Assembly (NCBI GenBank): GCA_009692925.1
Contig: SHYG01000011.1
Location: forward strand, 1-42,252
Reading direction: 5' to 3'
Source of the DNA: Dehalococcoidia bacterium
GTDB taxonomy: Bacteria; Chloroflexota; Dehalococcoidia; Lucifugimonadales; UBA3495
Length of the DNA: 42,252 nucleotides
The notes below the pieces were generated by a model. It had not been told where the DNA came from. It ran no database searches and was given only the letters and a program-made list of their open reading frames with translations. Positions 4,102 through 34,540 of the stretch are shown here, in pieces (position 1 is the stretch's first letter; each line of letters opens with the position of its first letter). The position numbers and the translations under genes were made by a program.

Positions 4102-5010
4102 ATGGCTTACCAGCGAGGAGCAGCAGCAGTAGCACCCCCGGAGATGCAATCCCAGGGAATGCAAGCCCCGAGAATGCGGCGCGAGAAGTCCCGGCCGGTG
4201 GTGGAAGCCGGTGCGGTGAAGTTCATTCTCCAGCACGAGGTCTGGGACGGCAACATCCACGACCACGGCGACCAGGGCGTGGCTATTTTGGTCATGGGCA
4301 TGGTGGACGGCAAGGACACCACCCTCCTGCGCTTCAACTGCTTCGACGTCGACCGCAGCTACGTTTATGCGCCGGAAGGGAAGAACAAGGTGTGCCGCAT
4401 GGACCCCACGGTGGACGGCAACGCCATCGCCTGGACCATAAAGCAGCTGCGGGACAACCTGCCTAAAATGCTGAAGGAGGCGGGCTACGAGTCCATCGCC
4501 AAACAGGTGAAGGTGCGGGAGCTGCAAGCGAAGCTGGGTGAGGTGGAGAGCCACGCCCGGCAGATGTTTACCATGGAGCGCAGCACGGTGAAGCACAACC
4601 GGGGCACCGATATGTTTGAGGCGGGCAACATCCGGTTCGGGCTGGAGCTGCGGACGCAGACCGGCGGCGACGGCGGTTTGGCCATCCACGTGCTGTCGGA
4701 CCTGGCAGGCACGCCGGGCCGGGAGTACACGGAGGAGACGGAGTTGCTGGCCTTCGACTGCTTCCGCGAGGCGCCTCACTACCACTACGGCCCCCGGAAC
4801 AAGAACTACCGGATCTTCTGGGACAAGACCATTGTGCCCGACACCCTGGAGTGGACCCTGCAGCAGTTCAAGGCGGGCAAGCTGCAAGCCATGATCCAGC
4901 GGGCCGGGTATCCCGGAGTGGCGGCGGACATTGACCAGGGGATTATCGCGTCGGTAATACCGGCCATGGAAGCCAAGGCCCGGGAGATGCAGCCCAAGGT
5001 CAAAGCCTAG
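4102..5010 (+). CDS. Unrecognised protein with an internal domain duplication
   Basis: A 302-residue protein I cannot assign to a characterised family. It has a Gln/Ala/Met-rich N-terminus (about 1-30) and two homologous units, residues 59-136 and 192-276. Both contain G-x-AI-x-V, a FxCF motif (FNCF 78-81, FDCF 218-221), an aromatic Y-x-Y, a K-N pair (GKNK 93-96, RNKN 232-235), a tryptophan-threonine pair (W111, W251) and AGY (127-129, 268-270). A helical, charged segment (130-160) joins them. There is no signal peptide or membrane segment. AAGGGGAGG lies upstream of ATG 4102. The following gene is an amidohydrolase on the same strand, but a family A hairpin separates them. No function is claimed. 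Confidence 0.8.
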   Translation: MAYQRGAAAVAPPEMQSQGMQAPRMRREKSRPVVEAGAVKFILQHEVWDGNIHDHGDQGVAILVMGMVDGKDTTLLRFNCFDVDRSYVYAPEGKNKVCRMDPTVDGNAIAWTIKQLRDNLPKMLKEAGYESIAKQVKVRELQAKLGEVESHARQMFTMERSTVKHNRGTDMFEAGNIRFGLELRTQTGGDGGLAIHVLSDLAGTPGREYTEETELLAFDCFREAPHYHYGPRNKNYRIFWDKTIVPDTLEWTLQQFKAGKLQAMIQRAGYPGVAADIDQGIIASVIPAMEAKAREMQPKVKA

Positions 5011-5019
5011 TCCGGAGGA

Positions 5020-5068
5020 CGAAATCCCCCCTCGCCCCCCTTTGTAAAGGGGGGTTGGGGGGATTTCG
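5020..5068. repeat. Family A palindrome, copy 1
   Basis: GAAATCCCCCC and its complement flank a GC-rich stem centred on TTTGTAAA, followed by TTTTCC on the + strand. It could act as an intrinsic-terminator-like hairpin after the duplicated-domain gene. Confidence 0.75.
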
Positions 5069-5142
5069 TTTTCCAAGACGAAAGGATGGCTAACTGATAC
5101 ACCATCGGCCAGAGATCGCCGTTCACAATTAAGGAGCGCCCC

Positions 5143-6106: not shown

Positions 6107-7078
6107 CTAGCTGGCAAACATGCGCAGGTCATCGGCCTGGTGACCCCCTTCGTGGCGCATTGACGCGATGTCCAGCTCCGGGGTGAAGGATGTCATCTCC
6201 GGCCAGGGGCGCTGGCTAATCTGGCGGACCGCCTCCAGCAGCAGCGGCTGGAGGCGGTGCAGGATGTCCTGGGCCTGCCGGTGGGTGACGGGCACCAGCC
6301 GCACCCCGGCGCTGAGCACCCCCACCGAGTAGCTGTGGCAGTAGGCCAGCAGGGCCCACTCCGCGGGTATTTCCAGGCAATGGCTCACCACGCCCATGGC
6401 CACCGCGCCGCAGCCGGGCGCTTCTCTCCTATTACTCCCATTTCTGCGGCCTGCACCGTCAAAGAGACCATCTGCCGGGATTGGTGGATTTGGGGATGAG
6501 GTTTCCCCCACATTTGAATCCCCTAATCTCCTAATCCCGGCCTCTTTCGTGGCGTCAACGCGGGCCAGGTAGGCGGCGTGCAGCGGGTGGGAGACCAGGG
6601 GCGCAGTCTCCTGCAACAACCTGCGACCGTGCTGGCTGGAGGCTGCCCGCAGCTCCGCGGGCAGCTTCAGGGCGTGGAGCAGGCGGTCGATCTCCAGCAC
6701 CGTCGGCAGGTCGCCCTCAGCAGCGGCGCGGTGGGCGTTGAGCAGCGCCACGCCGTCGCTGGGCAGCACCGACCAGGCAAGCTGGCTGACCAGCAGCTCC
6801 TCCACCTCCGCGGCGGTGCGCACCAGCCCCCGGCGCACCATCCCCTCCAGGCCGTGGGAGTGGGCGTACATGCCCGTGGGGAAGAAGGAGTCGGCAATCT
6901 GGAGGGCGGCTAGAAATGGGGCAGGGCCGAAATCCCCCCTAACCCCCCTTTGCAAAGGGGGGACGGACGGAGTTCCAACAGCCGGGATTGGAGGATTGGG
7001 GGATGAGGTTCCCCTTATATTTAAATCCCCTAATCTCCTAATCCCCGCTTCTTCCGTCCCATCGCTCGCATTCAGCAT
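6107..7078 (-). CDS. ureF: Urease accessory protein UreF, enlarged by translated repeats
   Basis: UreF is a GTPase-regulating chaperone in the UreD-UreF-UreG complex that delivers nickel to apo-urease. Normal UreF sequence runs from about residue 54 (FLAALQIADSFFPTGMYAHS) to 175 and resumes at about 220 (APGCGAVAMG) through the C-terminal PELDIASMRHE. Together that is about 226 residues, the usual family size. The 323-residue product is longer because residues 10-50 and about 179-215 are encoded by palindromic repeats. Two family C copies each give EAGIRRLGD..N....SSPNPPIPA, and a family A half-copy gives PLQRGVRGDF. The start is ATG 7078, three bases after the ureC stop and without a strong ribosome site. 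A TTG in the family A part (codon 42) is an alternative start that would omit most of the N-terminal extension. Confidence 0.88.
   Translation of the reverse strand: MLNASDGTEEAGIRRLGDLNIRGTSSPNPPIPAVGTPSVPPLQRGVRGDFGPAPFLAALQIADSFFPTGMYAHSHGLEGMVRRGLVRTAAEVEELLVSQLAWSVLPSDGVALLNAHRAAAEGDLPTVLEIDRLLHALKLPAELRAASSQHGRRLLQETAPLVSHPLHAAYLARVDATKEAGIRRLGDSNVGETSSPNPPIPADGLFDGAGRRNGSNRREAPGCGAVAMGVVSHCLEIPAEWALLAYCHSYSVGVLSAGVRLVPVTHRQAQDILHRLQPLLLEAVRQISQRPWPEMTSFTPELDIASMRHEGGHQADDLRMFAS
6475..6540. repeat. Family C palindromic repeat inside ureF, copy 1
   Basis: CCGGGATT ... AATCCCGG arms enclose GGATTTGGGGATGAGG and CCCCTAATCTCCTAATCCC. It lies wholly within the ureF frame, in the one reading frame without stop codons, encoding EAGIRRLGDSN...SPNPPIPA. 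It is closely similar to the copy at 6982-7047, in the same orientation and frame. Confidence 0.85.
6928..6962. repeat. Family A half-element inside the ureF 5' region, copy 3
   Basis: CGAAATCCCCCCTAACCCCC then CTTTGCAAAGGGGGG; the right arm is cut short (followed by ACGGACGG). It is translated in ureF as PLQRGVRGDF. Confidence 0.75.
6982..7047. repeat. Family C palindromic repeat at the ureF 5' end, copy 2
   Basis: Same arms and orientation as the internal ureF copy. It encodes EAGIRRLGDLN...SPNPPIPA at UreF residues 10-33. Confidence 0.8.
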
Positions 7079-7081
7079 ATA

Positions 7082-8800
7082 TCACACCAGGAAGAAGAGC
7101 TGGGCCAGGCTCAGCCGCTCCGCCGGGGGCACCGTCGCCAGCTCGCCGTCAACCCGCACTTCGTAGGTGTCGGGGTCCACGTCGATGCGCGGCGTGCGGT
7201 CGTTGCGGACCATCTGGCGCTTGGTGATGGTGCGGCAGCCCAGCACCGGCTCCACCATTCGCCGCAACCCCAGCTCCTGTTGCACCCCCAGCTCGTAGGC
7301 GCGGCGGGAGACAAAGGTGATGCAGGTGCGGGCCAGCGCCGGGCCCAGGGCGCCGTACATGGGCCGGAAAAACTGCGGCTCGGCGGTGGGCACCGACCCG
7401 TTGGGGTCGCCCATTAGCGCCCAGGAAACCATGCCGCCTTTAATCACCATCTTGGGCTTGGCGCCAAAAGTGCCCACCGGCCACAGGACGATGTCCGCCA
7501 GCTTGCCCGGCGTCAGCGACCCCACCAAATGGGAGATGCCGTGGGTGATGGCCGGGTTGATGGTCAGCTTAGCCAGGTAGCGCAACACCCGAAAGTTGTC
7601 GTGGTCCGGCGAGTCCTCGGGCAGCTTGCCCTTCATCTGCCGCATCTTGTCGGCGGTCTGGAACAGGCGGGTGAAGTTCTCCCCCACGCGGCCCATGGCC
7701 TGGGAGTCGGAGGAGTACATGCTGATGACCCCCAGGTCGTGGAGCACGTCCTCGGCGGCCATGGTCTCCGGGCGGATGCGGCTCTCGGCGAAGGCCACGT
7801 CCTCGGCCACGCCGGGGTTCAGGTGATGGCAGACCATGAGCATGTCCAGATGCTCGGCCAGGGTGTTCACCGTGTAGGGCCGTGTCGGGTTGGTGGAGGA
7901 AGGCAGCACGTTCATGTGGCTGGCCATGCGGATGATGTCCGGGGCGTGGCCGCCGCCGGCGCCCTCGGTGTGGTAGGTGTGGATGGTGCGGCCGTCAATG
8001 GCGGCGATGGTGTCCTCCACGAACCCGGCCTCGTTGAGGGTGTCGGTGTGGATGGCCACCTGCACGTCCTGAGCGTCGGCCACCCGCAGGCAGGTATCGA
8101 TGGCCGCCGGGGTGGTGCCCCAGTCCTCGTGGAGCTTCAGCCCGCAGGCGCCCGCCTCAATCTGCTCCACCAAGGGCGCGGCCTCGCTGGCGTTGCCCTT
8201 GCCCAGCAGGCCCCAATTAATGGGCAGGGCCTCCGCCGCCTCCAGCATGCGGTGGATGTGCCACGGGCCGGGGGTGCAGGTGGTGGCCCGGGTGCCGTCG
8301 GCGGGGCCGGTGCCGCCGCCCAGGTGGGTGGTGATGCCGTTGGCCAGGGCGTGGTACACCTGCTGGGGGGCGATCATGTGGATATGGGTGTCCACGCCGC
8401 CGGGGGTGGCGATGAGGTGCTCCCCGGCGATGACCTCGGTGCCCGGCCCCACCACCAGCGCGGGGTCAACGCCGTCCATCACATCCGGGTTGCCCGCCTT
8501 GCCGATGCCCACGATGCGGCCCGCTTTGACCCCCAGGTCGGCCTTAACGATGCCCAGCAGTGGGTCCATGATGATGACGTTGGTGATGACGAGGTCTAAA
8601 GCCCCGTTACGGTTGGTGATGCTGGTGTTCTGGCCCATGCCGTCGCGGGCGGTCTTGCCCCCGCCGAAGACTAGCTCGTCGCCAGGAGTTATCAGGTCCC
8701 GCTCCACCTGGCAGATGAGGGAAGTGTCGGCCAGCCGGAAGCGGTCTCCGGTGGTTGGTCCGTACAGCTCTACGTACTGACGCCGGCTAATGCGCGCCAT
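7082..8800 (-). CDS. ureC: Urease subunit alpha (catalytic)
   Basis: The catalytic subunit of nickel urease, hydrolysing urea to ammonia and carbamate in the cytoplasm. At 572 residues it is full length. Every active-site residue is visible: nickel ligands H139 and H141 (THIHMI), the carbamylated K222 (LKLHEDWG), H251 (AIHTD), H277 (TYHTEG), the catalytic histidine H325 in the mobile flap (CHHLNPG) and D365 (SSDSQ). The N-terminal [12 protein letters not shown] strand is intact. GGAG lies seven bases before ATG 8800. ureB lies upstream across a perfect 34-bp hairpin, and ureF begins three bases after the stop. It should be fully active if nickel is inserted. Confidence 0.98.
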
Positions 8801-16954: not shown

Positions 16955-17056
16955 CTCGTCATTCCGGCGAAGGCCGGAATCCAGCCACTTCGCCTAGCAA
17001 CAGAATGATGGATGCAGAACTGCCACGCTGGGTTCCGGCCTCCGCCGGAACGACGA
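16955..17056. repeat. Two family D repeats in inverted orientation
   Basis: ATTCCGGCGAAGGCCGGAAT (16961-16980) and TTCCGGCCTCCGCCGGAA (17033-17050), each a hairpin, face each other about 50 bp apart and are related over about 30 bases. Single copies recur at 24570 and 33109. They occupy the 475-bp gap between urtA and the broken sugar dehydrogenase gene, which holds no gene. Confidence 0.7.
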
Positions 17057-18417: not shown

Positions 18418-18470
18418 GCGGGGATTTGGGGATTAACCGTGAACGTATCCCCTAATCCCCAAATCCCCGC
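18418..18470. repeat. Family C palindromic repeat, copy 3
   Basis: GCGGGGATTTGGGGATT pairs with CCCCTAATCCCCAAATCCCC GC. It lies in the 335-bp divergent region between the sugar dehydrogenase pseudogene and the molybdenum hydroxylase gene, which holds no other gene. Confidence 0.75.
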
Positions 18471-24013: not shown

Positions 24014-24066
24014 GCGGGGATTTGGGGATTAGGGGATTGACGGTGAATTTATCCCCAAATCCCCGC
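24014..24066. repeat. Family C palindromic repeat, copy 4
   Basis: GCGGGGATTTGGGGATTAGG ... ATCCCCAAATCCCCGC. It fills the convergent gap between ureD and the small membrane protein gene. Confidence 0.75.
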
Positions 24067-24084
24067 CCAACGGCTTGGTCAACC

Positions 24085-29578: not shown

Positions 29579-29602
29579 TTAGCCCCTTAGTAAAGTATCC
29601 TG

Positions 29603-29661
29603 CCGGGATTTGGGGATTAGGGGTTCTATTCAACGTTAATCCCCTAATCTCCTAATCCCGG
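29603..29661. repeat. Family C palindromic repeat, copy 5
   Basis: CCGGGATTTGGGGATTAGGG ... CCCCTAATCTCCTAATCCCGG, between the jelly-roll-like gene and the MFS gene. Confidence 0.75.
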
Positions 29662-29716
29662 CCGGTTGTCCTCCACCCACGCTGGAGACGAAATAGGCTG
29701 CATAGGGGGCATGTAG

Positions 29717-34390: not shown

Positions 34391-34473
34391 AACTTTCGTA
34401 AATCCCCTCCAACCGCCAGGCCTTGGAGGCGTGCAGTAATATCGCCTGTGCCGCGGGTGACTAAAACCATCGT

Positions 34474-34540
34474 AAATCCACTAATCTCCTAATCCCCGCC
34501 TTTGGGTACCTTTCTGCGGGGATTTGGGGATTAGGGGATA
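34474..34540. repeat. Family C palindromic repeat, copy 6
   Basis: Arms AATCCACTAATCTCCTAATC (from 34475) and GCGGGGATTTGGGGATTAGG flank TTTGGGTACC. It lies in the convergent gap between chrA and the next gene. Confidence 0.75.

Follow-up and report, generated by a model that had tools for sequence, protein, structure and literature searches.

Palindromic repeats of two dispersed families lie in frame in ureF and in other conserved genes of a Chloroflexota genome

The ureF gene of this Dehalococcoidia genome reads uninterrupted through three short repeats, two in-frame palindromes of family C and one of family A, which raises the question of how such elements came to lie inside a conserved reading frame and what becomes of the protein. 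The window spans contig C64 in full (42,252 nt) and belongs to a draft assembly of 2.07 Mb in 101 contigs whose nearest named relatives are Chloroflexi / Dehalococcoidia records. The identity of the gene is clear: Pfam UreF matches residues 86-277 of its 323-residue product (E=4e-34), and the best Foldseek matches, ten of them above noise, are all UreF structures. The gene directly follows ureC, whose TGA stop occupies 7082-7084, and ureA, ureB, ureC, ureG and ureD are intact around it. An Rfam match to 5_ureB_sRNA (59.7 bits; 8350-8647, plus strand) lies antisense within ureC. The features of the locus, in window positions, are:

6107-7078, minus strand: ureF open reading frame, 323 residues
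7082-8800, minus strand: ureC, intact
6981-7048, minus strand: N-terminal copy of the family C palindrome, 68 nt, residues 10-33, peptide EAGIRRLGDLNIRGTSSPNPPIPA
6474-6541, minus strand: internal copy of the family C palindrome, 68 nt, residues 179-202, peptide EAGIRRLGDSNVGETSSPNPPIPA
6924-6977, minus strand: family A palindrome with one degenerate arm, giving PSVPPLQRGVRGDFG (PPLQRGVRGDF)
6916-7060, minus strand: N-terminal inserted block, C plus A, between MLNASDG and FLAALQ (bounds approximate)
6434-6556, minus strand: internal insertion, net 41 codons, residues 175-215, facing a 41-column gap in 9/9 relatives
6953-6955, minus strand: in-frame TTG in the loop of family A, read from the sequence as a possible alternative start; its use would leave the N-terminal C copy outside the protein

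The two family C copies are 88% identical and lie in the same orientation. A sequence-only reading had placed them at 6982-7047 and 6475-6540, in the ureF frame and with the same peptide, and the boundaries found here differ from these by a single nucleotide at each end. It had also held that only one of the three frames of the coding strand is free of stops and that both copies use it, which is so; in both, the loop is longer and keeps the used frame open. The family A half-repeat to which it had assigned PLQRGVRGDF is the palindrome at 6924-6977, with one imperfect arm. Covariance-model E-values for the ureF C copies are 5e-15 and 2.4e-14 (2.07 Mb searched; both belong to the ten copies from which the model was built), and a plain DNA search likewise recovers family C across the genome. 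The N-terminal block adds a net ~46 residues, and the internal block comprises the C copy and 55 nt outside the C element. Inverted arms of AAAGAG...CTCTTT flank the internal C copy (6434-6556), and GGACGGA...TCCGTCC flanks the N-terminal copy.

Alignment of the source protein with nine UreF proteins from related genomes identifies both blocks as insertions, through the internal gap and the homology of the starts. The internal block is missing from all nine relatives: the alignment shows exactly 41 gap columns for them, flanked by HAAYLARV and REAPG. FLAALQ opens the homologous core and lies 7-13 residues from the start in eight of the nine relatives versus residue 55 in the source protein. 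In one genus among the relatives, the start MLDES overlaps the ureC stop; the source start, MLNAS, sits just behind the ureC stop and matches MLDES, so the C plus A block stands behind a conserved start. With both blocks removed, ~236 residues remain, not the ~226 estimated from the sequence at first, and complete relatives without an N-terminal extension have 230-240. The possibility that these residues are an ancestral, conserved insertion of the UreF lineage, merely resembling the repeat, is exceedingly unlikely given the absence of the internal block from 9/9 relatives and the presence of the same DNA family between genes elsewhere and in another gene. Repeat-free relatives carrying the same residues, the counter-case named by the sequence-only reading, were looked for and not found among the nine. 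Its interpretation of the blocks as coding palindromic insertions is supported: they are absent from every compared UreF, the frame is intact, and the analogy with Rickettsia that it drew fits. In JACQUQ010000120.1 (L032, ~4974-5111), the stretch from the ureC stop to the FLAALQ of ureF holds another, different palindrome in frame; it is unique in its genome, not a dispersed repeat, and was not counted as a further case.

Three repeat copies in one gene, and a length of 323 residues against 230-240 in most relatives, could also mark ureF as a decaying pseudogene whose frame is open by luck. Against this, the gene contains no stop or frameshift, and its product keeps 67 of the 70 columns that are invariant in the relatives, a count within the span obtained on leaving out the other members one at a time. 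The core codons score as coding by a codon-usage measure trained on window genes, which chose the right frame for 172/173 training-gene segments; the surrounding urease genes are intact, and nine other conserved genes of the genome behave alike. On this evidence ureF is not a pseudogene, and luck is a very unlikely account of its frame. In an AlphaFold2 model based on 10 sequences, the core blocks of UreF have mean pLDDT values mostly of 75-95. Residues 1-49 and most of 189-223 are modelled as low-confidence coil, the latter stretch falling between helices 165-188 and 224-234.

Translation of the N-terminal C copy depends on the start codon. If translation began at TTG 6955 or elsewhere downstream, this copy would be untranslated leader, a reading that draws on the in-frame TTG inside family A and on the lack of an obvious Shine-Dalgarno sequence before ATG 7078. 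The position of ATG 7078 just behind the ureC stop, and the match of MLNAS to the MLDES starts that overlap ureC in relatives, argue for the upstream start, and the leader is unlikely. The choice of start does not affect the internal C copy, whose translation, as held earlier for both copies, is probable; the N-terminal copy would be translated only if ATG 7078 is used, with the TTG as a possible alternative. A further possibility is that contigs were wrongly joined at the repeats, which are classic misjoin points, in a draft of 101 contigs. The repeats are merely 60-70 nt long, and the same gene continues in the same frame on both flanks of each insert in ten genes, which makes an assembly artefact highly improbable.

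Across the source genome, the covariance model built from ten C copies identifies ~35 distinct family C sites, with a few more in the related genomes G008, G014 and G018. The element is mostly 61-68 nt long, and in most copies one or two frames are open. Four further copies in the window were placed by the same model:

18418-18470: intergenic family C copy
24014-24074: intergenic family C copy
29602-29662: intergenic family C copy, the highest-scoring one of the genome and embedded in a longer repeat
34473-34540 (start also given as 34450): intergenic family C copy, degenerate

The statement that family C otherwise lies between genes is correct for these four copies and fails for the genome as a whole, in which C is found inside at least one other gene. 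One such copy (C87:27315-27375) is in frame within a conserved 234-aa gene directly upstream of a herA-like ATPase gene (herA being named from sequence). Orthologues of this herA-linked gene were matched in 48/58 relatives; nearly all the matches fall into two segments on either side of the insert, the first ending at residue 41-47 and the second resuming at ~74-83. None of the 14 aligned orthologues has the C insert, and one of them carries a longer, unrelated loop. In the model of the protein, the insert occupies a turn between strands 39-42 and 80-92, and core pLDDT is near 97 on either side. A search with the ureF repeat peptide turned up no other gene with a convincing copy in the same frame. 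Many long open reading frames over C copies have no Pfam match and look like shadow frames of a high-GC genome, and a luciferase-like gene at L085 was set aside because its C copy lies upstream, not inside. At several sites C forms the hairpin of a longer repeat (L078 11672 on C25, window 29602, L090, L094, L089, L082 and L104), in which similarity extends by ~76 nt on the upstream side and by as many as 50 nt on the downstream side, for a total of up to ~190 nt; this longer repeat also occurs in G008, a genome of another genus.

The family A core is found at 120 sites of the source genome within three mismatches, versus 0 for the reversed control, and at 90 sites within two mismatches versus no more than 15 in each of 58 relatives, a difference that marks A as amplified in the source genome. 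The consensus, written by eye from sampled copies, consists of GCATTTGGGACGGAAATCCCCCCAACCCCCCTTTGC plus its mirror; this 70-nt sequence is perfectly palindromic, and all six of its frames are free of stops. In the sampled copies about five of six frames are open. When 60 A copies were read with the codon-usage score, eight had one open frame with coding signal on both flanks, and all eight of the proteins concerned have a Pfam match: biotin ligase, N6 methyltransferase, DUF2298, GT4 glycosyltransferase, CO-dehydrogenase FAD subunit, SDR, MutS2 and TrpF. The MutS2 insert sits just before the ATP-binding loop (peptide across the insert borders, GGDGTKPPLPPFTK) and is missing from Bacillus MutS2 and from 10/11 related MutS2 proteins. 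The eleventh relative (L182, G016) has an unrelated insert of ~20 residues at the same loop. In TrpF, the A insert lengthens a variable loop beyond its length in most relatives; the CO-dehydrogenase FAD subunit has extra residues, and the biotin ligase (L101 4448-5101) has an unmatched stretch. Hairpins are weaker in coding A copies (17.1 vs 19.3 paired of 28), a difference too slight to use.

The sequence read consists of stretches drawn around repeats, in which only in-frame cases were sought, so that gene fractions are approximate. By a simple gene finder, 78% of this sequence is coding, yet just 7/60 A copies and 1/35 C copies lie inside open reading frames. After homology comparison, the copies in genes are eight of A, two internal ones of C and the N-terminal C copy of ureF. 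In-frame repeats thus occur in nine conserved genes besides ureF, at least ten in all, and the reading frames used differ between genes. Coding repeats are spread over the genome and belong to two distinct families, which goes beyond what could be seen from a single contig. As copies are under-represented in genes, insertions into genes seem mostly to have been lost, and those left are in frame.

The reading we prefer, to which we assign a probability of about 0.86, is that these are small palindromes, probably mobile, that have mostly been purged from genes and survive there as tolerated added loops. Families C (~61-68 nt) and A (~70 nt) would have dispersed through the genome by transposition, probably as non-autonomous elements, mobility being suggested by the dispersal itself. 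Most copies would have come to rest between genes, and a minority would have entered genes, fitting in length and phase so that the reading frame was preserved; those retained would lie at sites that accept an extra loop. ureF would have been hit at two such sites, one shortly behind the start codon, taken by C plus A, and one between two helices, taken by a second C. The inserts are probably translated, and the resulting UreF would be expected to gain one disordered tail and one disordered loop around a core that is otherwise normal. Neutrality or slight harm, not usefulness, is the most likely effect of such an insert, and near-neutrality is probable for the inserts in general. Points against this best explanation are the 55 nt beyond C in the internal ureF block, the distance of the closest UreF (~62% identical), at which neither a clean empty site nor a target-site duplication was legible, and the result of the transposase search: the Y1 family (PF01797) gave no match in the 91% complete genome; the control matched in 5/14 genomes.

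Selection might instead maintain the inserts as regulatory mRNA hairpins or functional peptides. The predicted hairpins of the three coding C copies are strong (-30 to -45 kcal/mol), and the unrelated insert in one MutS2 relative could be cited in the same sense, although it shows only that the site is variable. The AlphaFold2 models place the inserts of UreF and of the herA-linked protein in low-confidence coil, copies are strongly under-represented in genes, and the frames used differ from gene to gene; usefulness is accordingly improbable. A related proposal is that the six-frame openness of family A is itself an adaptation, which would make the element a Pro/Gly-rich linker in any frame or orientation, harmless when translated and a recurrent source of protein loops. 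This is rather doubtful. The genome, with an element that is a perfect palindrome and free of stops in every frame, provides a system for testing whether selfish DNA is a source of protein loops.

Protein-coding palindromes spread over a whole genome are known best from Rickettsia and Wolbachia, for which intracellular genome reduction is a natural explanation. The presence of two families in ten or more conserved genes of this uncultured Chloroflexota bacterium suggests that intracellular life is not required. Rickettsia palindromic elements (RPEs) are described as dispersed, with several families per genome, both intergenic and in frame (Ogata et al. 2000; PMC2229807, PMC10969869, PMC3767692), and families A and C, palindromic and dispersed, two in one genome, resemble them in each of these respects. 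As reported there, RPE inserts lie in solvent-exposed areas (PMC3767692), to which the low-confidence loops predicted by AlphaFold2 for UreF and the herA-linked protein may correspond, and a guanylate kinase with such an element is translated and active (PMC2229807). Protein-coding elements of Wolbachia, an alphaproteobacterial endosymbiont unlike the present host, are described as including one in biotin ligase (Ogata et al. 2005, cited in PMC3767692), a target shared with RPEs and with family A. Other features set RPEs apart. RPEs measure 105-146 bp, or about 100-150 bp (PMC2229807, PMC3767692), a range that A and C, at 61-72 nt, do not reach; the host is a Chloroflexota and not Rickettsia; and consensus A is open in six of six frames. 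Reading frames hold roughly one of every eight A copies sampled, and few of the C copies, as against the 19 reading frames recorded among 44 RPE insertions (Ogata et al. 2000 via PMC2229807). A and C appear to work like the coding palindromes of Rickettsia and Wolbachia and are likened to them by behaviour; they differ in size and host and are not filed as RPEs. Open-access literature yielded no paper with the A core or with coding palindromes in Chloroflexi.

Two other classes of small repeat are comparable. Like MITEs, A and C are small, inverted-repeat elements, mostly intergenic, with some in-frame fusions, which are known for ERIC/RU-1 and the 107-bp Correia element (PMC2229807). The whole A or C element is palindromic and in this sense has terminal inverted repeats. 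The described ERIC and Correia families have terminal inverted repeats and target-site duplications; in A and C the palindrome makes up nearly the whole element. REP elements are likewise short palindromes in high copy between genes, but at 20-40 bp (PMC3733652) they are shorter, and the Y1 (RAYT) transposase of REP/RAYT systems is the one not found in this genome. Two more families of short repeats are visible in the window: CCCCCCTCTGTATCTCCC..GGGGGAGAGGG, at 1654, 12009, 27173 and 41142, and TTCCGGCCTGCGCCGGAATGACG, at 17029, 24569 and 33106.
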